A stretch of 64,000 nucleotides of DNA, from positions 124,001 through 188,000 of the forward strand of contig NZ_JADYVX010000002.1 of the NCBI RefSeq assembly GCF_020194175.1, read 5' to 3'. The position numbers were made by a program, and so were the translations under genes. Of the stretch, positions 909-14,090 are shown piece after piece. This DNA is from Bradyrhizobium sp. BRP22 (lineage in GTDB: Bacteria; Pseudomonadota; Alphaproteobacteria; Rhizobiales; Xanthobacteraceae). The number at the start of each line of letters is the position of its first letter. Within the stretch, counting starts at the first letter, position 1. The notes under the pieces are model-generated. The model was given only the letters and a program-made list of their open reading frames with translations, did not search any database and had not been told where the DNA came from.

Positions 909-3653
909 TTAGAACGGAGGATCATCAGGCCCCTCAGAAGCTTGCGTCGATGACCCGTCATTTGTGCCGCTTCCGTCGGTATCGTTGTCAGGTGTCATGC
1001 GGCGCGCCGTTGCCGCCTTCTTCTTCTGCGCATGCCTCATCGATGACACGCACGGCTTCGCACTCCATGAGCCTGGAATAAAGCCATTGGGGTCACCTTG
1101 CGGCGATGTCGTGCTGGCGGTTTTGCCCTCGAACAGATTGCCCTCGACGGCGCGCTTCCAATAGCCCTGCCCGGCGTCGTTCAACCTGATGCCGGCGTAG
1201 TAGCGGCGGTGGGTTTCGCGCAACTCGCTGCGGTTGATGGCGATGCGAGGATCGCCTAGCGCCACCATCGCGCGGCCGATGCTGTCGTTGCTCGGAACAT
1301 GTCGGTCCTCGCCCTTGTTTTCGACCCACCACACCGCCAGCGCGGCGCAGAAATCCGGCACCGATATCCGCCGCTCGGGATCGTATTCGACGCAGTCGGC
1401 GATGAAGCCCGCAGCGAGATTGCTATCGCGCCTGATCTCTTCAGCGGTTTCCCTGACGGCATCGGTCAACTCGATGAAGCCCCGCTTCCGCGCCGCCCGT
1501 AGCCCGGCAATCGCCCAGTTGAGCAAGCCAGGTCGCTCGGTGTTCAGGACCAGTGCCGATGCCTTGTCATACCCACATCGCTTCGCTTCGGCGGCGGCGC
1601 CGATCAGCGGCTCACTCTCGACGAATTCGCGGGTGCAGATCAGCACGATGATGCGGTTGGTGATGGCCTTGGTGGCTTCCTTGAACTGCGGCGCGTAGTT
1701 GGCGCCCCAGAAGATCGGCACCGTGATCCGTTTACTAAGCAGTGGACCATTCTTGATGTTGATCGGCACCGGCTCGCCCGTGATGATCGCCTTCACCGTC
1801 GCCGACAGATGCCATTTGCCCGGCTGAAACGCCTCATGCAGCACCCACGGCACCCGGCGCACGAAGCGCATCAAGCCGTGCGCGCTCTCCAGCGCATCGA
1901 GCCCAGTCGAATTGATCTCGTCACCGAACAGACCGCCAAGCACCTCGAGGATCTCCGATTTGCCGACATTGGAGATGCCTTGCAGGATCAGCACCTTTGA
2001 TTGCGAGCGCGGCTTGACATCGATCAGCGCTGCACCGAGCAATTCTTGGACAATGCGGATATAAGCCTTGCGCGTTTCCTCCGCCTGGTCGGCGAAAGTG
2101 TCGTTGAGCATGGTTTGCCACCATGGGCACGTCGCTTTCGGATCATAGTCGCACTCGATGCGCCACGTGCAGAAGTCGTCCGGCTTGGTCGGCGTCAGCT
2201 CTAACGTGTCGGGATCGATCAGGCCCGACCTTGTCGGGATTTTGCGATGCGCATCCCACGGGATTTCACCGTCGCGCCACAACTGTGGTTGCCGCATGAT
2301 CCAGCTGCGGGTCTCGAAAATTAATTTGCTCTTGCTCTTGAAGCCGATGACGACGCAGGCATCTTCGATCTTCACATCCAGCCAGTGGGTGCCGATGCGC
2401 AATTCCCAGATGCCGTGGCTGTAAACCCATGCGGCTTTTGCCGTGAACATCACTGCTTCGCCAGCATCGTGCATCATCCGCAGTACGATGTTGCCGAGCA
2501 CGACATGCTCCAGCTCTTTCTTTGGCGGCTTCGGCGGCGATGGCGGTGGCGCCGGCTTGTTGAACTCGAGGATCTTGGCGCCGCCGCCGCTGGCAGCGCT
2601 CGCGCGTTCGTCCTGCTGTTCTTGATAAAGCTTGCCGAGTTGTTCGCCGGCGTCTCGCGGTGCCGGGACCGGTTTGGCTTCCTTGGGCTTCTGCGGATGT
2701 TTGGCCAACCAGGTCTCGCACATCCGGCGGATGTTCTTTTCCTCACGTCGCCAATTCCATCGCGCTCCGTAGTGTCCGGCCGCATTCCTGGTGGCTTCCA
2801 GGATCAGCCTCACGACATCGTCGATATCCTCGCCGGCATTGAGCAGCGAGGCCGACACCGCGATCTGGGTGGCATGGATCGCGGATTCGCCGCCGCCCAT
2901 GAACATCATCGCGTTCAGTCGCTTCTCGACATCGAGCGACGGCTTATAGCCATGCTCGATGGCATAGCGCAGATAGGGATTGTCAGCCGCCTGCCCTGCG
3001 GTGACGGCTTGCGGGCGATCCTTGCGCAGGATTACCGGACTGGCTTCCGCCAGCCATTCCTCCAGATCGCCCAACTCATAGCGCGCCTCGGTCAGCCTGA
3101 TGACCTCGACCTCGACCCAGCCATCGTTCTTGGTGTTGTGGCTGCCGGGCAGTCGCAGCACCCGCGACACCTCGCAGCATTGCAGATCGCCGCCAACCAG
3201 GTCGGCGAGTTGACGCAGCGCCGACTCGATGCGCTCGATGTCGCTCTGGGTATCGAAGGCTTCCTTGAACAGCCAGTAGCAATGCAGTCCGCCGCCGGAG
3301 GCCACCACCGCAGTCGGCGGATAGCGGAGCTTGGCAAGCTGGCGCACGACCTCGTCGCGGGTTTCGGTAATGTTCTTGAAATCGATGTCGACAAATAATC
3401 CGGGGGTCTCGACGATGTTTTCCTTGGCCCGCCGCATGCCGGCCTTCACGGTGCCGGCGCAGAAGAACAGGCCCCGCTTCGCTCGGTCCCACTTCGCGGC
3501 GAACGCAGTGATATGCGACGGAGTCCGCGTCGCGACATGGCGCTCGGGCGGCTCGGTGTCATCGTTGCGCTCGTTGGGAAACGAGCACAGGTACACCGGG
3601 TGCTCGGTGCTGACACCGAACAGTGCGTGAATGAATGTTACCGCAATCGTCAT
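909..3653 (-). CDS. RepB-type primase / SF3 helicase fusion (phage replication protein)
   Basis: A 914-residue protein likely to prime and unwind DNA for element replication. The N-terminal part resembles the RepB-like primase fold: a D-x-D pair at 89/91 in FVDIDFKN, SGGGLHCYW at 119-127 and RVLRLPGSHNTK near 164-175. A helical linker and a proline-rich stretch (about 368-380) follow. The C-terminal half resembles the DUF5906/D5 helicase of P4-type primases, with Walker A GISNVGKS at 559-566, a Walker B-like VPWVLHEAF near 601 and an arginine-containing NRIIV segment downstream. The start at 3653 has a GGGGA ribosome site; upstream in-frame codons overlap the preceding small gene and were rejected. 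Domain names rest on motif recognition, not on a search. Confidence 0.88.
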   Translation of the reverse strand: MTIAVTFIHALFGVSTEHPVYLCSFPNERNDDTEPPERHVATRTPSHITAFAAKWDRAKRGLFFCAGTVKAGMRRAKENIVETPGLFVDIDFKNITETRDEVVRQLAKLRYPPTAVVASGGGLHCYWLFKEAFDTQSDIERIESALRQLADLVGGDLQCCEVSRVLRLPGSHNTKNDGWVEVEVIRLTEARYELGDLEEWLAEASPVILRKDRPQAVTAGQAADNPYLRYAIEHGYKPSLDVEKRLNAMMFMGGGESAIHATQIAVSASLLNAGEDIDDVVRLILEATRNAAGHYGARWNWRREEKNIRRMCETWLAKHPQKPKEAKPVPAPRDAGEQLGKLYQEQQDERASAASGGGAKILEFNKPAPPPSPPKPPKKELEHVVLGNIVLRMMHDAGEAVMFTAKAAWVYSHGIWELRIGTHWLDVKIEDACVVIGFKSKSKLIFETRSWIMRQPQLWRDGEIPWDAHRKIPTRSGLIDPDTLELTPTKPDDFCTWRIECDYDPKATCPWWQTMLNDTFADQAEETRKAYIRIVQELLGAALIDVKPRSQSKVLILQGISNVGKSEILEVLGGLFGDEINSTGLDALESAHGLMRFVRRVPWVLHEAFQPGKWHLSATVKAIITGEPVPINIKNGPLLSKRITVPIFWGANYAPQFKEATKAITNRIIVLICTREFVESEPLIGAAAEAKRCGYDKASALVLNTERPGLLNWAIAGLRAARKRGFIELTDAVRETAEEIRRDSNLAAGFIADCVEYDPERRISVPDFCAALAVWWVENKGEDRHVPSNDSIGRAMVALGDPRIAINRSELRETHRRYYAGIRLNDAGQGYWKRAVEGNLFEGKTASTTSPQGDPNGFIPGSWSAKPCVSSMRHAQKKKAATARRMTPDNDTDGSGTNDGSSTQASEGPDDPPF

Positions 3654-3682
3654 CACCGTTCCCCGCAAACGGCCAGTCAACT

Positions 3683-3853
3683 CTACTGTTGGTCCTCGCC
3701 GTATCTTTCTTTGAGCTTTTCGAGATAGAGAAGGCGCGGCATCTGATTGCAGATGCAAGCTGCGGGTACCCGGGCGGCACACTCGGCATGTCCATCCAAC
3801 ACACAGCGCAGCATTCGATTGTCCGGCTCGCGCGGCTCTCCTTGCTTGACCAT
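3683..3853 (-). CDS. 56-residue cysteine-rich small protein
   Basis: A short leftward ORF between the SSB-like gene and the primase. It starts MVKQGEPREPDNRMLRC and contains four cysteines (C17, C25, C33, C35), then a basic C-terminal helix with LLYLEKLKERYGEDQQ. A GAGGAG Shine-Dalgarno sequence lies 7 nt before the ATG, and the stop is 29 nt before the primase start, so it sits exactly as an operon member. The cysteines could bind a metal, but their spacing matches no finger I know. Small proteins in this position often modulate replication proteins; that is inference only. Confidence 0.6.
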   Translation of the reverse strand: MVKQGEPREPDNRMLRCVLDGHAECAARVPAACICNQMPRLLYLEKLKERYGEDQQ

Positions 3854-3919: not shown

Positions 3920-4612
3920 TCAGAACGGGATGTCAGTTTGTTTCGGCTTTTCCTCCGCAGCCGCCGCCGCTGCCGCCTGGCCAAGCGCTTCGGCGAATTC
4001 CGCCTTGGCGGACCATCCGACGATTTCGAAGATCGGGAATTTGATCCGGCCGAATTGCTTGTTCGAATGCGCATACGAGCCGACATCAAGCTTGACAATG
4101 GGGAATTCGTCGGGCCGTTGCCGCATCACCTTGCCATAGGCCTTGCACAATTCGCCGATCGCACCGATGCCGCCCTTGCTCGCCGTGGTGAAGGTGAACA
4201 GCGCATCATCGGGATCATCTTCGCCAGGCGTCTTCATGATGAGGTAATTGGAAAATTGCCACGGGTCGCGTGGCTGACCATCGTCATCACGCTCCCACTG
4301 GGTTTCATCCTGATCGCCCAGATCCTTGCGCTTCAGTGGCTGGTATCCGTCCGCGAGGCGACCCATGATCTGTTCCGCCGGCTTGTTGTCTTCCCATTTG
4401 ATCCAGCCGATCATCAGCTCATCCATGTTGGCGATCAGCTCGGTGCCGCGTGGCATCTCGGCATTGTGCTCGCCGACGAGGTAATCACCTTTGCTGAACT
4501 TCAGCAGGCGGCCGACGATGTTGCGTTGCGATGCCTGTTCGCCATATTGGGTGAAGAAATTGCCTTGGGCCGGCGCGGCTTCGGTGCCGTTGCGCGTTGC
4601 GAGTTCGGACAT
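3920..4612 (-). CDS. SSB-like phage protein with DIPF C-terminal tip
   Basis: A 230-residue leftward gene placed between the Cas4-like nuclease and the primase. The body (GRLLKFSKGDYLVGEH..., IKWEDNKPAEQIMG..., YGKVMRQRPDEFPIVKLDVGSY) looks like the rhizobial phage proteins annotated as hypothetical or ssDNA-binding-like. The tail is an alanine-rich linker (residues about 211-219) followed by EEKPKQTDIPF. A flexible linker ending in D-I-P-F is the hallmark of single-stranded DNA-binding proteins, which use it to recruit replication and repair partners. Binding of ssDNA is therefore inferred from the tail and the gene neighbourhood, not from a clear OB-fold signature. Confidence 0.72.
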   Translation of the reverse strand: MSELATRNGTEAAPAQGNFFTQYGEQASQRNIVGRLLKFSKGDYLVGEHNAEMPRGTELIANMDELMIGWIKWEDNKPAEQIMGRLADGYQPLKRKDLGDQDETQWERDDDGQPRDPWQFSNYLIMKTPGEDDPDDALFTFTTASKGGIGAIGELCKAYGKVMRQRPDEFPIVKLDVGSYAHSNKQFGRIKFPIFEIVGWSAKAEFAEALGQAAAAAAAEEKPKQTDIPF

Positions 4613-5760: not shown

Positions 5761-6216
5761 CTAGGCTCCCGTGATTTCTTTTCGGAGGATCAGGAAAGCG
5801 TTGTCGGGCTCGCCGGGCAGCGCGTCGTCGAATGGTGGCAGACCTGCGTGCACCCGGGCGCGGACGATCGCCATGTCCATCATCGACAGCACGGTGAACT
5901 GCTGATCGCGGTCGCAAGCCTTGATCCAGCGCGCACCTTTCACATAGTCGACCAGCTCGTGCGACGACTGCGGTGTCAGCCGTCGCAACAGCGCCAGGAG
6001 AATGCGATAGTTCGCGCTGTGCTCGCTGCTTAATAGTGCGGTGCTCTCAGTGCGTACCGCCCGCTTGTAGCGCGCGAACTGTACGCTGTTGTCGCGCTGC
6101 TCTTTCTCCAGCACGGTCGGCACCAGTGGTGCATTGGCCTCCGACCGCACCACGCGCACCGGCTTGCTGCGGCGCGGCGCCGCCATCGCGGCATATCGTT
6201 CGAAGCTGTTGCTCAT
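5761..6216 (-). CDS. Hypothetical protein of the leftward operon
   Basis: A 151-residue basic protein starting MSNSFERYAAMAAPRRSK. Its ATG at 6216 lies one base after the stop of the upstream winged-helix gene (TAGCATG), so translation is probably coupled; a farther upstream in-frame ATG was rejected for that reason. The middle (NYRILLALLRRLTPQSSHELVDYVK) is helical and could be a helix-turn-helix, and it shares the 'RILALL.R' opening seen in the preceding gene. No catalytic motif is visible. Function not recognised; position suggests a replication or regulatory accessory. Confidence 0.65.
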   Translation of the reverse strand: MSNSFERYAAMAAPRRSKPVRVVRSEANAPLVPTVLEKEQRDNSVQFARYKRAVRTESTALLSSEHSANYRILLALLRRLTPQSSHELVDYVKGARWIKACDRDQQFTVLSMMDMAIVRARVHAGLPPFDDALPGEPDNAFLILRKEITGA

Positions 6217-6217
6217 G

Positions 6218-6508
6218 CTAGGTCGATGCCTCGAAATGCACATCGGCACTGCAGCCCGATCGCGTCCTGCGCTTGCCGCGCGTCACCAGCCAACCCTTGC
6301 GCTTCATGTCGGAGAAGCGCGCGCTGCAGGTTTGGTGGCGCATGCCAAGAAGGATCTCGGCTTCATCGCAGGTGAGACCTGCCGGCCGTTGGTGCAGCAG
6401 TGCGAGAATGCGCAAATAGTCAGTGTTCTTGCGCGGCTTGGTGGCTTCGCGCGCCTCGACGCTGCGCGAATGGCCGCCGTGATAATTGGCGATGATGTCG
6501 TCGCTCAT
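6218..6508 (-). CDS. Small winged helix-turn-helix protein
   Basis: A 96-residue protein. Residues about 30-80 fit a winged helix: YLRILALLHQRPAGLTCDEAE, then a recognition-type helix with RHQTCSARFSDMKRKGWL and a basic wing (GKRRTRSG). The Q-T-x-S-A-R-x-x-x-x-K-R-K-G-W pattern is common in phage DNA-binding proteins that sense or coordinate replication. An excellent GGAGG ribosome site lies 8 nt before the ATG. It may regulate the operon or act in origin recognition; the sequence does not say which. Confidence 0.7.
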   Translation of the reverse strand: MSDDIIANYHGGHSRSVEAREATKPRKNTDYLRILALLHQRPAGLTCDEAEILLGMRHQTCSARFSDMKRKGWLVTRGKRRTRSGCSADVHFEAST

Positions 6509-6536: not shown

Positions 6537-6866
6537 TCATTGCGCGAACCTCCGCGGATGAGCGACATTCCATTCGAAATATTTGCAGGCCTCGGCACTG
6601 TCGGGCACCGCGGCGCCCGCCTTGCCGGTGATCGCCCGGTATTTGCGGCACGGCGCCGGCTTGATCATCCCGTGATATTTGCCGTTCTTGGAGTGGTACT
6701 CATAAGCGTGATGCTCCCAGTGCAGGCATTGCCGGCACGTCATGTTGCTGTCGCCATAGGTGCCGGCGAAATGCGCCATGCCGGGATACGTCGCGCGCGC
6801 CTGCCGGGTCAGCGTCGGGTCAGGCTCGGTCAGCTTGTCGGACAAGGGATCGCGGAATAGCGTCAT
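6537..6866 (-). CDS. Cys/His-containing small phage protein
   Basis: A 109-residue protein with MTCRQCLHWEHHAYEYH in the middle and later single cysteines in APCRKY and EACKYFEW. Two C-x2-C style cysteines plus scattered Cys/His suggest a metal-binding fold. It begins within the ATGA overlap with the VRR-NUC gene stop, so it is translationally coupled. Proteins of this type are frequent in temperate phages of Rhizobiales beside VRR-NUC genes, but no function is known to me. Confidence 0.65.
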   Translation of the reverse strand: MTLFRDPLSDKLTEPDPTLTRQARATYPGMAHFAGTYGDSNMTCRQCLHWEHHAYEYHSKNGKYHGMIKPAPCRKYRAITGKAGAAVPDSAEACKYFEWNVAHPRRFAQ

Positions 6867-7258
6867 AGGATCACCACGCCCGGCTTGAGCACGTTCCAGC
6901 CCCGCAAGATCTCGAGCGCCTGCTCGACCGACTTCGCCATGCCCCAGCGAATGCCGAGCCGCTGACAGATCGCGCGAAATCCCTTCTGTTCATCGGAGAG
7001 CGCGCCGCCGCGCGCCTTCAGCTCCAGCCATGCGACCGCGCCCTCGGCGCTCGGGAACAGAAAACAGAGATCGGCGATACCGGAGCGCAGTCCTTCGGCT
7101 TTCATTCGCACCGCGTTACGGATGCGGCGGTTGCTCTGGTTCGGAATCGCAAACACGAAAATCTCTTCCCGCTTAGCGTAGGCAAGGATGGTCAGCAGCT
7201 GCACCTGGAGCGAGTGCTCGCTCGGCTCGATCCGGGCGATGCGCTTGCGTCCGCTCAT
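6863..7258 (-). CDS. VRR-NUC domain nuclease
   Basis: A 131-residue single-domain protein of the VRR-NUC branch of the PD-(D/E)XK superfamily (as in FAN1 and in phage recombination nucleases). The expected residues are present: E14 in EHSLQVQ, PN at 39-40, SGIADL with D63, E79-L-K81 in WLELKARGG, and Q91. Such stand-alone phage copies are thought to act as Holliday-junction-type nucleases. ATG at 7258 overlaps the stop of the GcrA-like gene (ATGA), which fixes the start. It belongs to the leftward early operon. Confidence 0.9.
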   Translation of the reverse strand: MSGRKRIARIEPSEHSLQVQLLTILAYAKREEIFVFAIPNQSNRRIRNAVRMKAEGLRSGIADLCFLFPSAEGAVAWLELKARGGALSDEQKGFRAICQRLGIRWGMAKSVEQALEILRGWNVLKPGVVIL

Positions 7259-7677
7259 GGCGCCCGCCGCTGGTGGAATTTCTTGTGATGCTCGGCGCAA
7301 TAGGATGATCGCGCGCCGCTTGCGAGCCACACGGTTGGCTTGCCGCAATACAGCGGGTTGGCCTGATTGCTGGCATCGAGCAGCGCGCGGCAATGATGCG
7401 AACGCAGATTGAAGAGCCGCACCGGTTTATGCGGCTTGCCTGGAGGATCGTTCTGAATGGGCTGTGTCAACAGTGGTCGCCTCGACTGTGATGGCGCCCG
7501 CATCTGAATCCGCTGCGTCGCTCCGAGCGGCAGTCCCAGGCGATGCACCTTGCCGCACACCGCATTGCGCGAACGCCGCAGCTCGGCGGCGATCAGCGAG
7601 GCGCTTTTGCCGCTCTGCCAGTCGCGTATCAGGGTTTCGATCTCAGGTGCCGTCCATGGCGCTGCCAACGTATCCAT
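7255..7677 (-). CDS. GcrA-like transcription regulator
   Basis: A 140-residue protein resembling GcrA, the alphaproteobacterial cell-cycle regulator that binds sigma-70 RNA polymerase at methylated GANTC promoters. The N-terminus has the GcrA-type helix-turn-helix (WTAPEIETLIRDW, then S-A-S-L-I-A-A-E-L...RNAVCGKVHRLGL). The C-terminus has a C-R-x-L...YCG...SYCAEHH segment like the GcrA sigma-contacting tail. It is the second gene of the leftward operon, after the repressor-like gene. A phage-borne copy could bring methylation- or cell-cycle-dependent timing to element genes; that part is inference. Confidence 0.82.
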   Translation of the reverse strand: MDTLAAPWTAPEIETLIRDWQSGKSASLIAAELRRSRNAVCGKVHRLGLPLGATQRIQMRAPSQSRRPLLTQPIQNDPPGKPHKPVRLFNLRSHHCRALLDASNQANPLYCGKPTVWLASGARSSYCAEHHKKFHQRRAP

Positions 7678-7682
7678 GACGT

Positions 7683-7916
7683 TCACCGCGCATTGGCAAA
7701 ACGACGGTCGAAATCGGTGGGATATAGATCCGGCCGCACCTCGCTCGGATGCAGACCCATGAATTCTGCGACCTTGAGGGCATGCCTTGCCGGCACTCGG
7801 TTGGGCCACATACAGACGGCACTGCGTCCAATGCCGCAGGCTTGCGCCAGCTTGGCGGCCAGCGCGGTGTCCTTGCTCAGCGCGACGAAGACTTTGTTTC
7901 GCATCTCTGCGCGCAT
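7683..7916 (-). CDS. YdaS/Cro-like phage repressor
   Basis: A 77-residue protein with one helix-turn-helix: KDTALAAKLAQACGIGRSAVCMW, followed by VPARHALKVAEFMGLHPSEVRPDLYP. This is the pattern of the YdaS/Cro family of phage regulators. I chose the ATG at 7916 because GGAG lies 7 nt before it; an ATG at 7934 is also possible. It heads the leftward operon and faces the ACGATAACT repeats in the divergent region, so it is the natural candidate to bind them. Confidence 0.82.
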   Translation of the reverse strand: MRAEMRNKVFVALSKDTALAAKLAQACGIGRSAVCMWPNRVPARHALKVAEFMGLHPSEVRPDLYPTDFDRRFANAR

Positions 7917-7998
7917 CAGCCAACTCCATTGCAAAGATGTCGATGAACGTCGCCAATGGATAGGCGTGATCGCGGCGTTGGTCAGCAGGCGCCGCCCG

Positions 7999-8115
7999 AG
8001 TTATCGTTCAGAAAATGCACGCCGGCTCAATTTTGTTGACGATAACTCTGTTGCGATGCGTCGCGCTTCTAAGCGGTGTGCGGTACTCGGTCGCTAAATT
8101 TCTTTAACGATAACT
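7999..8115. promoter_or_regulatory. Three-copy ACGATAACT operator array
   Basis: The nonamer ACGATAACT occurs at 8039-8047 and 8107-8115 on the plus strand and inverted at 7999-8007. It sits in the only long intergenic gap between the divergent early clusters. The inverted copy overlaps a possible leftward -10 (TTGAGC, 18-nt spacer, CGATAA on the minus strand). The copy at 8039 overlaps a TTGACG -35-like box. This is the arrangement expected for a lambdoid-style switch operated by the adjacent Cro/YdaS-like protein. Binding is inferred from position and repetition. Confidence 0.6.
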
Positions 8116-8199
8116 TTTGCCAGCCAGCCTGGCAAAACAGGGGTTAAGTCTTTGATCCGACATGACGCAAACCCTTAGTTTTAGGGCGTTTCTAATCTA

Positions 8200-8231
8200 T
8201 TGACAGCACCGTGCGAACAGGCTCGCATATA
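8200..8231 (+). promoter_or_regulatory. Putative rightward promoter
   Basis: A perfect TTGACA at 8200-8205 is followed by a weak CATATA-like -10 at 8226-8231. The spacer is 19-20 nt, longer than ideal. It lies about 70 nt before the first rightward gene and is the best promoter candidate for the DnaA-like/histone-like cluster. Confidence 0.35.
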
Positions 8232-8298
8232 CGCGTCATGGCAATTTCGATCTGAGCAACAGCGCCACCACCATTGAATGATGGAAGGGCATTGAGCG

Positions 8299-8646
8299 AT
8301 GGCGGCTGCCATGAGTGAACACAAGCAAGACGCCGCCGCCTATCGCGCGATGGCGTTGGAATACCAGCGGCGCTGCGCGGACAGTCCGCAGATCAGCCGA
8401 TACATTCTCGCCCGCAACGCCGGCCTTCGCGCGTTCAACGTCTCGCTGGCCGATGTGCTCTCGGACTGCCGCAAACAGCACATCGCTCAACCACGGATGA
8501 AGATCATGGCGGCAACGGTGGTGCTGACCGGCGGCAGTCATAGCGGCGTCGGCCGTGTCTTCAACCGCTGGCAATCGACCGTCGCCCACGCGGTCTCGCT
8601 CTATGGCGAGAGCGTGCGTCGGGTGCTTGCGCAGGCAGCGGCATGA
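8299..8646 (+). CDS. DnaA domain IV-like DNA-binding protein
   Basis: A 115-residue protein whose second half matches the pattern of DnaA domain IV, the part that binds DnaA boxes: FNVSLADVLSDCRKQ, then QPRMKIMAATVVLTGGS, then VGRVFNRWQSTVAHAV, which parallels the DnaA signature G-x-x-F-G-x-R-D-H-T-T-V-x-H-A. No AAA+ domain is present. The D-H-T signature is changed to R-W-Q-S-T, so specificity may differ. The start at 8299 has GGAAGG about 10 nt upstream; ATG 8311 is an alternative. First gene of the rightward cluster. It could bind the host or element origin or compete with host DnaA; that is inference. Confidence 0.75.
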   Translation: MAAAMSEHKQDAAAYRAMALEYQRRCADSPQISRYILARNAGLRAFNVSLADVLSDCRKQHIAQPRMKIMAATVVLTGGSHSGVGRVFNRWQSTVAHAVSLYGESVRRVLAQAAA

Positions 8647-8736
8647 TCAAAACGGAATTTCCCACGCGAAATCGGGAAATGATTGCGAGCCGATCAGCGC
8701 AATTCAAACAATCTGATCCAACCGAAGGAGTCACAT

Positions 8737-9048
8737 ATGGCTAAAGTCAAGGGTGCACAGCCGGCATCGCCATCGGCCACGGCACCGTCGGGCGCGCCGC
8801 CGAAGAAGAAGGCGCGCAAGGCCGTGAAGCGGAAGGTGTCGCGCCCGGCCGTCGCCGCGGTCGCCAAGCGAACCACCAAGCGCCGCGCCAGGAGATCAGC
8901 CAAGCGAGCCGCCAAGGCCGCTCGGAAGGGTGCGGCGGCTGGCGTTTCGAAACTGGTGAACGCCACCAACAGCGCGCTTAGCCGCGCACACCATCGCCTG
9001 ACGGCGGTGATCGCCGAGCTGCGCTCGCTGCAACTGGCGATGCGCTGA
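8737..9048 (+). CDS. Histone H1-like basic protein
   Basis: A 103-residue protein composed mainly of Lys, Arg and Ala (PPKKKARKAVKRKVSRP, KRRARRSAKRAAKAARK) in its first 75 residues, ending in a helical TNSALSRAHHRLTAVIAEL segment. This resembles H1-like nucleoid proteins and the C-terminal tail of alphaproteobacterial HU variants. GAAGGAG lies 6 nt before the ATG at 8737, a near-ideal ribosome site; the longer frame from 8683 was rejected. It probably coats or condenses DNA without sequence specificity. A hairpin with a T-run follows it. Confidence 0.7.
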   Translation: MAKVKGAQPASPSATAPSGAPPKKKARKAVKRKVSRPAVAAVAKRTTKRRARRSAKRAAKAARKGAAAGVSKLVNATNSALSRAHHRLTAVIAELRSLQLAMR

Positions 9049-9062
9049 ACATCCGGATTGTT

Positions 9063-9098
9063 AGGCGCGCCTGATAATGGCGCGCCTGCCGTCTTTTT
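9063..9098 (+). terminator. Hairpin terminator or attenuator
   Basis: AGGCGCGCC at 9063-9071 pairs with GGCGCGCCT at 9079-9087 across a 7-nt loop, and TTTTT follows at 9094-9098. It sits right after the histone-like gene, so it may reduce read-through into the small downstream genes. Confidence 0.6.
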
Positions 9099-9117
9099 GA
9101 GAAAGGCGCAGCCCGAC

Positions 9118-9312
9118 ATGATCGCGAAAATCAGATTCGACAAGCCGAACGGCGCGGAGATCGACGACATTGCCGCTTTTATCCATGACGCACTGACATC
9201 TTGGGGCGGTCAGTTTCACCCTGACGATCCGCTGTTTCATTCGCTCAACGTCAGCCGCATTACCGTGCACGGTCAGGAATATTTCTGTGCTCAGAAGCGC
9301 TACCATGACTAG
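9118..9312 (+). CDS. Hypothetical small phage protein
   Basis: A 64-residue protein starting MIAKIRFDKPNGAEIDDIAAFIHDAL and ending HGQEYFCAQKRYHD. The ATG at 9118 has AAAGG about 12 nt upstream; the frame is open from 9058, but that extension overlaps the terminator. The next gene starts inside its last codons. No domain recognised. Confidence 0.55.
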   Translation: MIAKIRFDKPNGAEIDDIAAFIHDALTSWGGQFHPDDPLFHSLNVSRITVHGQEYFCAQKRYHD

Positions 9313-9526
9313 CGGCATCACCTACACCGAGCTGCTGACCGCGTTGTGCTGCGGTGACCGCTGTATGCGCGACGGCGAGCACTGCCACCGCCATGACTTC
9401 GGTGGTGAAGCCGACCGCGTCATGCGCCTGCTGGCCCGCGCACACCACCAGCGCGAGCTGGATATGTCCATCGCATTTCAGGAAGCCGGAAGTGACGACA
9501 GTGAGGGAGATGCATCATGCCAGTGA
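9305..9526 (+). CDS. Hypothetical small phage protein (Cys/His-rich N-terminus)
   Basis: A 73-residue protein starting MTSGITYTELLTALCCGDRCMRDGE. The segment CCGDRC...EHCHRHDFGG has several Cys and His residues and may bind metal. Its ATG overlaps the previous gene's end by 8 nt and its stop overlaps the next start, so the small genes from 9118 to 10535 form one coupled series. Function unknown. Confidence 0.55.
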   Translation: MTSGITYTELLTALCCGDRCMRDGEHCHRHDFGGEADRVMRLLARAHHQRELDMSIAFQEAGSDDSEGDASCQ

Positions 9527-9783: not shown

Positions 9784-9793
9784 CGTGTTAACC

Positions 9794-10105
9794 ATGCCGC
9801 GCGATCACCTGCCGCAACGTCGCCGCTCCGAGACCTTCACCATCATGTGGGGCAACTTTCCGCACGTCGTGACCGTGGGCTTCTATGCCGATGGCCGGGT
9901 CGGCGAATGCTTCGTGACCGGCGGCAAGAGTGGCGAGACCCTGGAAGCCATTGCCCGTGATGGCGCGGTGCTGCTCAGCCTCGCGCTTCAGCATGGCGTT
10001 GACTTAGCGACGATCAGCCACGCCATCACCCGCGACAGCCAGAACAATCCGTCGTCGGTGATCGGCGCGGTGATCGACCGCCTGATGGAGGTTGAGCATG
10101 GCTAA
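9794..10105 (+). CDS. Stand-alone TSCPD-domain protein
   Basis: A 103-residue protein starting MPRDHLPQRRRSETFTIMWGN. The rest (VTVGFYADGRVGECFVTGGKSG, then ARDGAVLLSLALQHGVDLATISHAI, then VIGAVIDRL) has the pattern of the TSCPD domain, a piece otherwise found near the C-terminus of ribonucleotide reductases such as NrdJ. The NrdJ in this window has the matching region [17 protein letters not shown]...[19 protein letters not shown]...[10 protein letters not shown]. No catalytic reductase domain is present. It may bind nucleotides or modulate the host reductase; the function of the lone domain is not established. Confidence 0.75.
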   Translation: MPRDHLPQRRRSETFTIMWGNFPHVVTVGFYADGRVGECFVTGGKSGETLEAIARDGAVLLSLALQHGVDLATISHAITRDSQNNPSSVIGAVIDRLMEVEHG

Positions 10106-10535
10106 TGCTACACGTGAGCGCCGCCGGGTCTATGCCGCCGACACCAAGACGCCAGTCACGCAAACCCGCGCCGAGATCGAGGCGACGCTGGCAAAATTCG
10201 GCGCCACCGCGTTCGCGTTCGCGAGCCATCAAAAGGGCGCGACGGTGATGTTCGAATGCGCCGGCCGCCGGGTGCGGTTCGAGCTGCCGCTCAATGGCGA
10301 TGTCTCCGATGCCAAGACCGCGCGCCATCATCGCGAGCGTTGGCGCGCGCTCTTCCTCACCATCAAGTCGAAATTGGTCAGCATCGATTGCCAGATCGAG
10401 ACCTTTGAAGAGGCATTCCTGGCGCATGTCGTGATGCCCGACGGCTCGACCGTGGGCGACCGCGTGCGCCCGCAAATCGCCGACCAGTACAAGGGCGGCA
10501 ATATGCCGTTGATGCTGGCGGGGCCGGAAAAGTGA
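10098..10535 (+). CDS. Conserved phage hypothetical protein
   Basis: A 145-residue protein starting MANATRERRRVYAADTKTPV. The series RAEIEATLAKFGATAFAFA, VMFECAGRRVRFELPL, RWRALFLTIKSKL and EEAFLAHVVMPDGSTVGD is familiar from temperate phages of Rhizobiales and Methylobacterium, where it is always hypothetical. GGAGG lies 6 nt before the ATG at 10098, which decides the start over a TTG two codons earlier. It overlaps the TSCPD gene's last codons. No known fold. Confidence 0.7.
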   Translation: MANATRERRRVYAADTKTPVTQTRAEIEATLAKFGATAFAFASHQKGATVMFECAGRRVRFELPLNGDVSDAKTARHHRERWRALFLTIKSKLVSIDCQIETFEEAFLAHVVMPDGSTVGDRVRPQIADQYKGGNMPLMLAGPEK

Positions 10536-10559
10536 GTCAAATCAAGGCTGTCAGGTTCC

Positions 10560-10588
10560 TTGATAAAGCGGGCATTTTGCCCTATATA
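10560..10588 (+). promoter_or_regulatory. Promoter for xis-int with palindromic operator
   Basis: TTGATA at 10560-10565 and TATATA at 10583-10588 are separated by exactly 17 nt. The spacer itself contains the inverted repeat GGGCA-TTT-TGCCC (10570-10582), a natural repressor site between the boxes. The excisionase start is 15 nt after the -10, which leaves a very short leader. Confidence 0.65.
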
Positions 10589-10602
10589 TGAGGAATTGAG
10601 TT

Positions 10603-10989
10603 ATGCGTGCCAAAATCCCGGCACTGACTGACATCACTACCTCTACGCCATTACGTCTCGAAGTCGCGGCGCAATTGGCTTTCCCTGATGGATCGATGTC
10701 AGTTTCTGCTTTGCGCCGATTGGTTGTTGCTGGGCAAGTGTCGCACGAATTGATCGCTGGCAAGTATTACGTCACGCTTGCCGCTATAGAGGAAATGAGA
10801 TCGTCATGCCGCGTCCCAGCAAGCCGCCCTACCTCCGCAAAAAGAGGCGTGCCGGCAGAGAAACCATGTGGATCATCCGCGACGGCGACAAAGACGCTGG
10901 CACGGGATGCTATGAACATGATCGCGCAGGAGCTGAAAAAGCCCTCGCCGCGTACATCACCAAAAAGCACGACCCAAAGAAGGCGCTGA
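10603..10989 (+). CDS. Excisionase-like helix-turn-helix protein overlapping the integrase
   Basis: A 128-residue protein. The first 70 residues (LRLEVAAQLAFPDGSMSVSALRRLVVAGQVSHELIAGKYYVTLAAIEEMRSSC, interrupted here only for description) follow the helix-turn-helix/excisionase pattern 'AA..AFP.G..S...LR...A.G.L....I.GK.YVT...I..M'. The C-terminal 60 residues are Ser/Thr/Lys-rich and lie in a different frame over the integrase start, an arrangement I recognise from other rhizobial elements. GAGGAA lies 9 nt before the ATG. It should direct the integrase towards excision. Confidence 0.75.
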   Translation: MRAKIPALTDITTSTPLRLEVAAQLAFPDGSMSVSALRRLVVAGQVSHELIAGKYYVTLAAIEEMRSSCRVPASRPTSAKRGVPAEKPCGSSATATKTLARDAMNMIAQELKKPSPRTSPKSTTQRRR

Positions 10990-11987
10990 GCGCTAACGAC
11001 GTAAACACGATCAAGATCACCGACGTTTGCTCGCTCGAAATTCGACACATCAGTAAGCGCAACATCGATCAGACGTATAAGAACCAACTGATCTCCGCCA
11101 TCCAGCGCATCGGCAATTGGTTTGCCGATTACACCATCGGCGATCTCGATGGCGCGCTGCAAGAACGGTACGCCGAAGAGCGCTTAACAGAGACCGGTGC
11201 ATCAGCGTTTCGTGATCTGAAGTTATTGCAGGCGGCGATCAATCGTTGCGTTAAGAAAACCAAGGGCGGCATCCAGCCGAAGTTCAGTGCGACGCTACCG
11301 CCCGCGCCAAAGTCTCGCGAGCGCTATTTAGAGCGCGGCGAGGCCGCGAAGATGTTGTGGACCGCTTGGCGATATCGCAAGGCGACCAAACTAGCGACCA
11401 GCAAGGGTCGCCACACGCTGCGCCATCTCGCGCGATATATCCTTGTCGGTCTCTACACTGGTTCGCGCAACGGCGACATCTGCAACGCGGCTGTGATCCC
11501 GACCATCGGTCGCGGTTATGTCGATCTTGAGCGCGGCATCTTCAAGCGCAAGCCGGACAACAAGGAGGCGACCAGCAAGCAGCAGCCGACAGTGCCGCTG
11601 CCGCCTCGCCTGCTTGCGCACATGCGTCGCTGGAAGCGGCTCGGCATCTCCAACCACTCCGTTGTCGAATTCATGGGCAAGCCCGTAAAGCGCGTTCACG
11701 ATGGCTGGGAAAGCCTCGTTGAGAAGGCTGGGCTCGGGACTGACGACAAGCGCCGCAAGGTGGTGCGCCACACGCTGCGCCACACTGCGATCACGTGGTA
11801 CCTTGACGCGGGGGTGGATATCGAGCTGGTGAGCCAATATTGCGGCGTGTCGGTCGAGACCATTCGCAAGACCTACCGGCACGAGACGCCGCGCACGTTC
11901 GACAACTTGCTGGGCGTGAAGCTGAGTCGCTCCCGAAAACCAAACGTTTCCGGGACCGTTTCCGGGACCGCGCAGCGGCAGAATTAA
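10806..11987 (+). CDS. Tyrosine recombinase (phage integrase)
   Basis: A 393-residue site-specific recombinase that should integrate and excise the element. The C-terminal catalytic domain shows R221 (GSRNGD), H322-x-x-R325 (HTLRHT), and the nucleophile Y357 in RKTYRHETP, preceded by YCGVSVETI. The N-terminal 170 residues contain the arm-binding and core-binding regions (ISKRNIDQTYKNQLISAIQ...). Its first 184 nt overlap the excisionase gene in another frame. The tail encodes VSGTVSGT from a tandem 12-bp repeat. It lies at the edge of the element, as expected for int next to the attachment site. Confidence 0.93.
   Translation: MPRPSKPPYLRKKRRAGRETMWIIRDGDKDAGTGCYEHDRAGAEKALAAYITKKHDPKKALSANDVNTIKITDVCSLEIRHISKRNIDQTYKNQLISAIQRIGNWFADYTIGDLDGALQERYAEERLTETGASAFRDLKLLQAAINRCVKKTKGGIQPKFSATLPPAPKSRERYLERGEAAKMLWTAWRYRKATKLATSKGRHTLRHLARYILVGLYTGSRNGDICNAAVIPTIGRGYVDLERGIFKRKPDNKEATSKQQPTVPLPPRLLAHMRRWKRLGISNHSVVEFMGKPVKRVHDGWESLVEKAGLGTDDKRRKVVRHTLRHTAITWYLDAGVDIELVSQYCGVSVETIRKTYRHETPRTFDNLLGVKLSRSRKPNVSGTVSGTAQRQN
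11946..11969 (+). repeat. Tandem 12-bp repeat at the end of int
   Basis: GTTTCCGGGACC occurs twice in a row at 11946-11957 and 11958-11969, and GTTTCCGG recurs at 12027. The copies encode VSGT-VSGT in the integrase tail. Short direct repeats near the end of int can be arm-type integrase sites; that is a guess. Confidence 0.55.
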
Positions 11988-12179
11988 AAGAATCCTTCAA
12001 AAACAAGTACATGCGTCTAACCCGCCGTTTCCGGCGGGGAAAGGGCGGCATCCACCACTGGTCAGCCTGCACTCCCCGTGAAATAGTTCCGCGCCAACCA
12101 AGATCCGCGAGCCCGCAGCGCGGAAAATCACAAGAATCCGGAATTCGCACCGGAGAAGCCAGAGGAAGCCCCAACAAAG
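11988..12179. other. Intergenic junction between element and host genes
   Basis: About 190 bases between int and the esterase. It contains a perfect 7-bp hairpin CCCGCCG-TTTC-CGGCGGG (12021-12038) without a T-run. The element's right attachment site most likely lies here, but no tRNA 3' end or recognisable core could be seen, and the left end is not available for comparison. Confidence 0.4.
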
Positions 12180-13130
12180 ATGCCCGTCGTTCTCGATCCC
12201 GATGCCGCCGCTGTCTTCAAGGCGTTTCAGGAGGCCGGCCGCCCCGCTTACGAAACGCTGACCGCTCCCGAAGCACGCGCGTATTACCTGCAGGCGCGCT
12301 TTGTCAGTAATCCGGAGCCGCCGGAGCTGGCGCAGATCGAGCCGTTATCGATCCCCGCCCCGCACGGCGCGATCCCGGCGCGAATCTACCGGCCGAAGAA
12401 GCTGCGCCAGAAGGATGGGATGTCTCCGGCGCTGGTGTTCTTCCACGGCGGCGGCTGGGTGATCGGCGATCTCGACACTCATGACGTGGTCTGCCGCAAG
12501 CTTGCCGATGAAGGCGAGCTGATCGTGATCTCCGTCGACTACCGCCTTGCGCCCGAGCACAAATTCCCCGCGGCCGTGGAGGATGCCATCGCCGCGACGA
12601 AATGGGTGGCGGCAAACGCAAGGCAGCTCGGCATCGACGCCGCGCACTTGTGCGTCGGCGGCGACAGTGCCGGCGGCAATCTCGCCGCTGTCGTGTCGAT
12701 CGCTGCGCGCGATGAGGGCAACCCTGCGATCGCGGGACAGGTGCTGATCTATCCGGCGGTCGATTTCGCGATGACGCATCCCTCGCACAGCGAGCCCGAA
12801 ACCAGCATCCTGCTCACCCACTCCGTCATCCGCTGGTTTCGCGATCACTATCTCAGCAGCGCCGCCGACGCGCATGACTGGCGCGCTTCGCCGGCCCGCG
12901 CAAGCACCCTGATCGGCCTGCCGCCGGCCTTTGTGCTGACCGCCGGCGCCGATCCCTTGCGCGACGAAGGCGACGAATATGCCGAGCGTCTCAAAGCGGC
13001 CGGCGTGCCCGTGACCTACAAGCACTTCCCCGGCCAGTTCCACGGCTTCTTCACCATGGGCAAACTGCTCGACCAGGCCAACGTCGCAGCAAGCGATATC
13101 GGCGCGTGGCTGAAACAGTTGAACGCGTAA
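12180..13130 (+). CDS. HSL-family alpha/beta hydrolase (esterase)
   Basis: A 316-residue esterase of the hormone-sensitive-lipase group. HGGGW at 89-93 forms the oxyanion hole and GDSAGG at 161-166 carries the nucleophile S163. D258 (GADPLRDEG) and H288 (GQFHGF) complete the triad. YRLAPEHKFP is also typical of the family. No signal peptide, so it acts in the cytoplasm, probably on short-chain esters. It is the first host gene to the right of the element and converges on the GlxA-type regulator. Confidence 0.92.
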   Translation: MPVVLDPDAAAVFKAFQEAGRPAYETLTAPEARAYYLQARFVSNPEPPELAQIEPLSIPAPHGAIPARIYRPKKLRQKDGMSPALVFFHGGGWVIGDLDTHDVVCRKLADEGELIVISVDYRLAPEHKFPAAVEDAIAATKWVAANARQLGIDAAHLCVGGDSAGGNLAAVVSIAARDEGNPAIAGQVLIYPAVDFAMTHPSHSEPETSILLTHSVIRWFRDHYLSSAADAHDWRASPARASTLIGLPPAFVLTAGADPLRDEGDEYAERLKAAGVPVTYKHFPGQFHGFFTMGKLLDQANVAASDIGAWLKQLNA

Positions 13131-13142
13131 CCGAACGGGCGA

Positions 13143-14090
13143 CTAGACGCTTTCCCCCGCCCTCGCCGCCCGCCGCAGCGATTGCGGAGGCTGGCCGAAG
13201 GCGCGGATGAAGGCGCGTCGCATCCGCTCCGGATCGCGGAAACCGGTCGCCTCCGCGACGCGTTCGATGGCTTCGGCGGAGGACTGCACGCGCTGCCGCG
13301 CCACCTCGATGCGCAGGCGCTCCACCGCCTTCGATGGCGTGGTGCCGGTCTCGGCGACGAAGGCGCGGGTGAAGTGACGCGAGCTCATGCCGGCCTTCTC
13401 CGCCATGTCCTCGACCGTCAGCGGCGCATTGAGATGCTCGCGCGCCCAGGCGAGCAGCGGGCCGAAGCGGCCGTTTGCAGCCTTCAACTCCAATAGCGAG
13501 GAGAACTGGGACTGGCCGCCGCTGCGGCGATGATAAAGCACGAGCTGCCGCGCGGTCTTCTGCGCGATCTCCTCGCCGTAGTCCTCGGTGATCATCGCTA
13601 GCGCGAGGTCGATGCCGGCGGTGATGCCGGCCGAGGTCCAGATGTTGTCGTCGCGGGTGAAGATGCGATCCGGCTCGAGTTTCACTTTCGGATAGGCGGA
13701 AAGAAAATGCTTGGTCCGCTGCCAATGCGTGGTGGCGCGTCGGCCGTCGAGCAGGCCGGCTTCCGCGAGGATATAGGCGCCCGAGCAGACACTGGCGACG
13801 CGGACACCGCGCCTGGCGAGCCCGCGCACGAATGCCAGCGTCTTCGTACACTTCGCCGCCGCGCGCACGCCCTCGCCGCCTGCCACCACCAGTGTGGTGA
13901 TCGCCGCTGACGGTCGCAGGCCCCGCGCGAACATCTCGGCGCCGGACGACGAACGCACCGGCCCTGGCGTCACCGCGATCACCTTCAGCTCGGGTGGATT
14001 GCCGGCAAAGCGCGCGGCGATCTCGAAGGCCGAGATCGGGCCGGCGGCATCCAGCAATTGAAAGTCCGGAAATACGAGAACGCCGATCAT
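13143..14090 (-). CDS. GlxA-family AraC-type regulator with DJ-1/PfpI sensor domain
   Basis: A 315-residue transcription factor. The N-terminal part is a DJ-1/PfpI-like domain (MIGVLVFPDFQLLDAAGP..., and VASVCSGAYILAEAGLLDGRRATTHW around the nucleophile-elbow cysteine). The C-terminal 100 residues are a pair of AraC-type helix-turn-helix motifs (VEDMAEKAGMSSRHFTRAF..., RVAEATGFRDPERMRRAFIRAFG). The ATG at 14090 follows GGAGAAG. It is transcribed divergently from a DJ-1/PfpI-family gene, a common regulator/target pairing. Confidence 0.9.
   Translation of the reverse strand: MIGVLVFPDFQLLDAAGPISAFEIAARFAGNPPELKVIAVTPGPVRSSSGAEMFARGLRPSAAITTLVVAGGEGVRAAAKCTKTLAFVRGLARRGVRVASVCSGAYILAEAGLLDGRRATTHWQRTKHFLSAYPKVKLEPDRIFTRDDNIWTSAGITAGIDLALAMITEDYGEEIAQKTARQLVLYHRRSGGQSQFSSLLELKAANGRFGPLLAWAREHLNAPLTVEDMAEKAGMSSRHFTRAFVAETGTTPSKAVERLRIEVARQRVQSSAEAIERVAEATGFRDPERMRRAFIRAFGQPPQSLRRAARAGESV

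Follow-up and report, generated by a model that had tools for sequence, protein, structure and literature searches.

The protein encoded at 8299–8646 of the window, the whole 64,000-nucleotide stretch of Bradyrhizobium sp. BRP22 DNA that was analysed, is a DnaA domain IV fold without an ATPase. It belongs to a prophage and its gene lies at a divergent switch with operator-like repeats, which may serve as operators. We suggest, with a probability of roughly 0.37, that this protein (P0001) is a phage regulator that acts at its own control region and sets the lytic or lysogenic state. Coordinates without prefix are those of the window, and the prefix C96 marks those of the contig from which the window was taken.

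A DnaA domain IV without an ATPase

8299–8646, + strand: P0001, stand-alone DnaA domain IV protein of 115 aa (Pfam, phmmer, AlphaFold, Foldseek, VIA-align)

The open reading frame starts with ATG, and a GGAAGGG sequence ends 9 nt upstream of the start. The protein has an N-terminal helix (residues 2–28), and residues 44–99 match Pfam Bac_DnaA_C (PF08299) with an E value of 9.8e-10 and 38.8 bits, above the cut-off of 31.5. Pfam gave no match to an AAA+ domain, for which 115 residues are too few, so that the original prediction of a domain IV lacking its ATPase is borne out. Neither was there a Pfam match to an XRE-type helix-turn-helix, the kind present in the repressor of the sister prophage L038 discussed below. 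With phmmer, P0001 matched PDB entry 1j1v, the E. coli domain IV with a DnaA box (E 0.0027). The AlphaFold model, built from a 16-sequence alignment, has a mean pLDDT of 94.9 and a pTM of 0.87. The top nine rows of a Foldseek comparison with the PDB are all DnaA chains, the best of them at an E value of just 0.015. VIA-align returned six DnaA entries with Z scores of 8.9 to 6.4 (8.9 for both 3pvp and 1j1v) and 4.9 for the top unrelated row, on a scale where values below about 13 are common for helical models. Rows with Z below 5, among them sigma region 4 and DeoR, were taken as common helical arrangements. By both structural comparisons the model matches domain IV best, in line with the fold originally proposed.

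Residues of P0001 were equated with those of E. coli DnaA by an offset of 341, obtained from the range of the model that matches 1j1v, together with the one-residue gap of the phmmer alignment. The base contacts of the E. coli protein are at positions 399, 423, 432–435 and 438–439, according to the available text of PMC5043019. P0001 retains R399 (R58), R407 (R66), R432 (R90) and H439 (H97). The D-H-T signature, originally noted as altered, reads W91-Q92-S93 (D433 = W91, H434 = Q92, T435 = S93), and further equivalents are Q408 = M67, P423 = S82, T436 = T94 and L438 = A96. Four of the eight base-contact positions are therefore changed (P423, D433, H434 and L438), besides the replacement of T435 by Ser. 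Among the 16 aligned stand-alone DnaA-IV sequences R407 is invariant and the position of His434 is His in 14, the other two being P0001 with Gln and L036 with Arg.

The protein had also been suggested to titrate host DnaA boxes or block host initiation, with a search of the element for clusters of DnaA-box-like sites as a check. Over 51 kb of prophage, a stretch that excludes the part beyond C96:85001, there is no exact TTATNCACA, and copies with one mismatch, which form no cluster, number 8, where the expectation from 20 random sequences matched in dinucleotide composition is 12.15. The sequence TTATCCACA occurs 4 times in the whole window (4.4 expected). Clusters of DnaA boxes were discarded as candidate targets more widely: none was found with TTATNCACA in 14 stretches, which include phages whose DnaA-IV protein keeps D-H-T. 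The highest count in the other 13 stretches, 8 against 4.25 in L039, equals the maximum of the 20 random sequences, and a single exact copy in those 13 stretches lies in L098.

These results bear on the view that P0001 acts on the host, by titrating or blocking DnaA boxes or by disturbing DnaA regulation as proposed for HdaB. The fold is shared with host DnaA, and the first description of HdaB, which is the same protein as GafY, placed its action at replication initiation, according to a title cited in the accessible part of PMC9632790. However, the contacts are changed at D433W, H434Q, P423S and L438A, DnaA boxes are not enriched in the prophage, and the GafY authors ascribe the replication effects of HdaB to gene transfer agent production (same part of PMC9632790). 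An action on the host, including a block of initiation, of which we saw no sign, is in our opinion highly improbable, and neither titration of DnaA boxes nor competition for them finds support.

The prophage and its sister

The element, about 50 kb long or longer, is a tailed prophage. Its phage character, as originally claimed, is evident from genes for terminase, portal, sheath, tape measure and tail fibre, all left of the window, and for an integrase. Phage genes span 50 kb, from the tail fibre gene (C96:86001) to the integrase (C96:135984). Likeness to the sister prophage L038 extends to about C96:75300 and may reflect phage DNA or a common host flank. A search for attL gave no repeat of at least 16 bases in common with the integrase end, and flanks of empty sites gave nothing useful.

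909–3782, − strand: primase-helicase (RepB_primase and D5_N), leftward operon
7258–7680, − strand: GcrA-like protein (Pfam GcrA, 2.7e-15)
7683–7934, − strand: Cro/YdaS-like helix-turn-helix gene, heading the leftward early operon (matches to HTH_35 and YdaS_toxin below cut-off)
8737–9048, + strand: basic Lys/Ala/Arg-rich protein of 103 aa, next rightward of P0001
10603–10989, + strand: excisionase-like protein (phrog_1840, E 0.0026)
10806–11987, + strand: tyrosine integrase, 99% identical in the sister L038

The leftward operon starts at 7934 and encodes the Cro/YdaS-like protein, the GcrA-like protein, a VRR-NUC protein, a RecE-like exonuclease and the RepB-primase/D5 protein. The rightward operon consists of P0001, the basic protein, small genes, the excisionase-like protein and the integrase. 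This gene order fits the claim that P0001 is the first gene of a rightward transcript, but a scan of the + strand between 7600 and 9100 gave no sigma-70-like promoter.

Several other genes of the element deserve description. The basic protein has a histone-H1-like composition, no convincing family match and no match in L038. A small TSCPD-domain protein (9839–10105, + strand; Pfam 2.1e-8) has relatives in L037–L041. Left of the window, the stretch C96:120051–121611 (L035:16051–17611) encodes a PIN_12-domain protein (Pfam 5.2e-25) and, behind it, a protein without a match that is perhaps a membrane protein; the strand is opposite to that of the late genes, and the two form a possible cargo pair. 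Just to the left of the tail genes there are two small XRE genes (C96:85107 and C96:80861), which fall either within the prophage or next to it; the 96-aa product of one of them matches Pfam HTH_3 at 4.2e-14.

Integrase relatives were found in 15 of 257 genomes including its own (10 regions compared) and primase relatives in 8 of 265, again including its own. As sister phages these were rejected, except for L038 and the short L055: the others that were compared have no early region in common with the window prophage, and so are uninformative on the pairing of proteins and sites.

Judged from sequence, L038, which is identical over 12,376 bp to IMGVR_UViG_2513237098_000002, is a mosaic sister of the window prophage. 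Besides the integrase, the excisionase is 95% identical, the right flank is 91.6% identical over 10560–14000, and the leftward proteins at 6863–7393, 6537–6866, 6218–6508 and 5761–6249 are 72–93% identical. It is regarded as mosaic because the primase, the GcrA-like protein and the 3920–4612 protein have no match in the portion of L038 compared, in which the exonuclease is matched over 58 aa only. The YdaS proteins are 55% identical over 63 aa and the DnaA-IV proteins 31%, that of L038 keeping DHTT. No DNA match at E 1e-5 connects the two prophages across 7230–9321, nor across 9784–10559, and the first of these unmatched stretches resembles, by analogy, the immunity regions of related phages.

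In L038 a 262-aa XRE repressor (Pfam HTH_3 and Phage_CI_repr) is encoded between ydaS and the DnaA-IV gene. No CI-type repressor gene lies between ydaS and P0001 in the window prophage, and P0001 comes first at that locus, preceded by a short leader that the two prophages share:

8265–8278, + strand: 14-bp leader CCACCACCATTGAA, common to the leader just upstream of the L038 cI-type gene (E 0.003)

The leader thus sits just before P0001 in the window and just before cI in L038. An HTH_3 search of the own genome, which is the relevant repressor test as it would detect a repressor of the L038 type, gave no match from C96:85262 to the integrase. An S24 search gave none on contig C96, and the L038 repressor itself has no Pfam S24 match. 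A repressor may also be encoded elsewhere than at the switch, for example by the XRE genes left of the tail genes.

Relatives of P0001 in other prophages

The genome encodes domain IV in host dnaA, in P0001 and in a second copy beside an integrase on contig C107. This second element (L036:9813–10103) encodes a 96-aa DnaA-IV-like protein, below the Pfam cut-off, with H-R-S for D-H-T. A search of 257 genomes of the genus with profile A1 detected at least 13 phage-type copies, spread over 9 genomes, with scores of 64–180 bits against about 49 for host dnaA; six of these copies are rows of the profile itself. Stand-alone DnaA-IV proteins thus recur in prophages of the genus, where most are unnamed. 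Searched directly with P0001, viral_contigs, genome_contigs, phages and plasmids yielded no relative. The closest stand-alone relatives in the genus and family share 29–36% identity with it, and its identity to the 15 other aligned sequences is 17–34%. The nearest PHROG, annotated as 'DnaA-like replication initiation protein', is a weak match for P0001 (E 0.051) and is matched by 11 of the 16 members at E ≤0.1 (best 0.003), and P0001 does not match NCBIfam PRK06030 at E 0.1.

The genetic context was compared in 16 DnaA-IV loci (the window, L036–L041, L061, L062 and L094–L100). By eye, the gene directly follows recT in ten of them, with a PDDEXK-type nuclease gene further upstream; a Pfam check of this neighbourhood found RecT in L039 and L061 and the PDDEXK nuclease in L039. 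The proteins of L097–L099 are longer (184–190 aa), keep D-H-T and occur in another early-operon context. The L036 gene lies near the integrase, and those of the window and L038 are at the switch. GcrA-like genes tend to accompany the DnaA-IV genes: one is present in 10 of the 16 loci, three of which are query sources (window 7258–7680, − strand, L037, L039, L040, L041, L061, L062, L095, L096 and L098), against none of the 15 loci used for comparison (5 from primase relatives and 10 from integrase relatives), which are unmatched controls and include partial prophages. In L098 the GcrA-like and DnaA-IV genes abut. GcrA homologues are known in phiCbK-like phages (available text of PMC3556154), and a table of S. 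meliloti prophages in the part of PMC12429752 at hand lists GcrA five times and DnaA once.

An asymmetric motif confined, within its genome, to the prophage

An asymmetric 18-bp motif, ATTTYNTKRACGAYAACT, occurs five times in the 8.36-Mb genome, and all five copies are exact and located in the prophage. At up to one mismatch no further copy is present elsewhere in this genome, and the backward-read control gave 0. Three of the five sites are found between P0001 and the divergent YdaS-like gene:

7999–8016, − strand: site 1, motif ATTTYNTKRACGAYAACT, inverted pair with site 2
8030–8047, + strand: site 2, 18-bp motif, pair kept in L055
8098–8115, + strand: site 3, 18-bp motif, overlaps the −10 element of a leftward promoter-like match

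Sites 1–3 are 65–181 bp from the start of ydaS versus 184–300 bp from P0001. A matrix scan located sites 4 and 5 as a tandem with a spacing of 21 bp, at C96:122414 and C96:122435 (window −1586 and −1565); both fall in the 3' end of a leftward ORF that has no match. The sole promoter-like match near the sites is the leftward one, a chance-level match, with its −10 overlapped by site 3. One strand reads AGTTATCGT in four of the five sites, and the site at C96:122414 has TTGTC instead of TTATC. While AGTTATCGT retains the TTAT half of the DnaA box, the rest is changed; TTATC within an 18-mer is weak evidence, and the motif is longer than the 9-bp box. Right after site 3 there is a perfect 9-bp inverted repeat, TTTTGCCAG/CTGGCAAAA (8115–8137), which can fold into a hairpin, with a z score of −2.75 for the stretch 8085–8150.

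Alternatively, the sites could be those of the YdaS-like (Cro) protein or of one of the XRE proteins left of the tail genes, with P0001 as an accessory that has another role. The three switch sites are nearer to ydaS than to P0001, and XRE proteins, such as the 96-aa one with its HTH_3 match, are usual phage repressors. However, helix-turn-helix dimers usually bind sites with dyad symmetry, which by inspection is absent from the 18-bp sites. Moreover, L038 has no such site in spite of its 55%-identical YdaS, and no copy of the motif adjoins either XRE gene. We consider ownership of the sites by one of these proteins possible but doubtful.

In the 257 genomes the motif at up to one mismatch gave 73 matches in 61 genomes, against 11 for the backward-read control. 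Matches outside the own genome have one mismatch, are scattered and are in many cases identical in sequence; the recurring sequence probably represents a conserved host gene. The exception is contig C77 of Bradyrhizobium elkanii WSM2783 (G037; locus L055), which carries an exact and a one-mismatch copy as an inverted pair. This pair is homologous to that of the window (77% over 111 bp, E 1e-17). It lies in an element of about 4 kb (L055:4602–5031, NZ_AXAP01000169.1) that has an excisionase/regulator, a RepB-type primase and the inverted site pair, and no integrase was seen on the contig. The pair precedes the excisionase/regulator (phrog_2790), which we take to be of the AlpA type, and the primase follows. 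This primase is 58–60% identical to that of the window over residues 41–370, the only protein link seen between the elements, and neither a DnaA-IV nor a YdaS gene was found on the 7-kb contig. A scan for the site-pair pattern found the B. elkanii WSM2783 contig alone in genome_contigs and nothing in viral_contigs; such scans detect exact matches only, and these collections perhaps lack records close to the genome of the window. L055 may be a satellite with the operator of its helper or a remnant, or its site pair may be an origin recognised by the primase.

The last option touches on a role of P0001 in replication, in which it would bind the phage origin, containing the site pair, and help to load the primase-helicase or guide recombination-dependent replication. 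Both elements carrying the site pair also encode a RepB-type primase, and the pair can form a hairpin in single-stranded DNA, with z scores of −2.4 and −3.9. It is retained as a possible ssi or hairpin origin of the primase. The weak PHROG annotation and the position directly behind recT in 10 of 16 loci point the same way. On the other hand, P0001 and the replication genes are in opposite operons, the tandem sites 4 and 5 fold at a z score of −1.0 only, the stretch with site 3 folds through another repeat, and the genomes of the primase relatives L052–L054 have no sites. A replication factor is a rather unlikely description of P0001, although several observations agree with it.

Proposed role of P0001

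In the regulator mechanism that we prefer, the isolated domain IV would bind the asymmetric control-region sites as a monomer or small oligomer. The control region lies between the leftward early operon, from the YdaS-like gene to the primase, and the rightward operon of P0001 itself, and occupancy would set the lytic or lysogenic state of the phage. P0001 would repress the leftward operon, standing in for the missing CI; repression is slightly favoured over activation. Both the binding to the five sites and the direction of the effect are what we infer from sequence. By analogy, P0001 may be a putative repressor conferring immunity. Regarding the original suggestion that it binds an origin, binding to a control region or origin of the element is possible: repeated sites are clustered upstream of the gene, though these differ from DnaA boxes.

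P0001 is favoured as the binder because the sites are asymmetric, like those of monomeric DnaA domain IV, and because the TTAT half is kept, which is in line with the retention of R399 and the change of residues 433–435. A further reason is that L038 lacks the sites and its DnaA-IV protein differs more from that of the window than its YdaS does. Replacement of CI is slightly favoured since P0001 occupies the place of the L038 CI and is preceded by the common 14-bp leader.

The proposal of a regulator is weakened mainly by the L055 pair, which occurs where there is no gene for P0001 or YdaS. Further weaknesses are the position of sites 1–3 nearer to ydaS than to P0001, the deviating TTGTC at C96:122414, the length of the motif (18 versus 9 bp for a DnaA box), the XRE proteins encoded at C96:85107 and 80861, either of which could be the repressor, and the fact that 10 of the 16 family loci are beside recT and not at a switch. 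A more far-reaching version, in which a DnaA binding domain has turned into an immunity regulator that replaces CI and reads a private five-site code, perhaps also controlling the primase-bearing satellite-like element of B. elkanii in trans, is speculative and we judge it unlikely.

Comparison with known systems

DnaA-IV proteins without an ATPase are already known: GafY/HdaB, the N-terminus of GafA, PHROG 27829 and PRK06030 (available parts of PMC9638019, PMC9632790 and PMC11150451). P0001 resembles GafY/HdaB (CCNA_01111 of Caulobacter crescentus) in being a domain IV without ATPase in an alphaproteobacterial, phage-derived setting. GafY binds promoters and contacts RpoD (accessible text of PMC11150451 and PMC9632790). 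Unlike GafY/HdaB, which is host-encoded together with gafZ and serves gene transfer agents, P0001 is part of a tailed prophage and lies at the cI locus. It could nevertheless be a late-gene activator like GafY, working with IHF and a GafZ-type partner. The same domain is used alone, and the equivalent of T435 is Ser both in P0001 and in GafA, where it is S43 (PMC9638019, in the text available). However, no DUF6456/GafZ-like match was found by Pfam in the 27 other ORFs, most late-region ORFs being covered by PHROGs only or lying outside the scan, and we regard such an activator as very unlikely.

The prophage DnaA-IV proteins of PHROG 27829 and NCBIfam PRK06030 ('hypothetical protein') share the domain, size range and phage context of P0001, which differs from them in lacking the equivalent of His434. 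With DnaA domain IV itself (E. coli 1j1v, M. tuberculosis 3pvp) it has the fold, R399, R407, R432 and H439 in common, whereas the AAA+ domain is absent and W-Q-S replaces D-H-T. The locus is organised like a phage CI/Cro switch, with a divergent Cro-like gene, repeats in between and the int-xis operon on the repressor side, but a DnaA-IV gene occupies the position of the L038 CI and the sites are asymmetric. A DnaA-IV phage repressor was not found in our searches of the literature, which is no proof of absence. A possible parallel is the monomeric immunity repressor of the mycobacteriophage L5/TipsytheTRex type, which has two DNA-binding domains and 26 asymmetric sites at promoters and elsewhere (PMC9283540, as far as its text was available). 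The window prophage likewise has asymmetric candidate sites, five in number, at putative promoters and elsewhere, but P0001 is a different protein and would bind these sites by our proposal only.

As far as the searches go, the combination of an altered recognition helix with a position at the cI locus and with a set of sites private to the prophage is new. The literature on the Caulobacter protein, in the parts available, is split between replication (HdaB) and transcription (GafY), and the present case offers a small and concrete test, with one protein, few rivals and five sites confined to a prophage. If P0001 binds the five sites, the DnaA domain IV fold would have been retuned to a new code and put to use as a phage switch.
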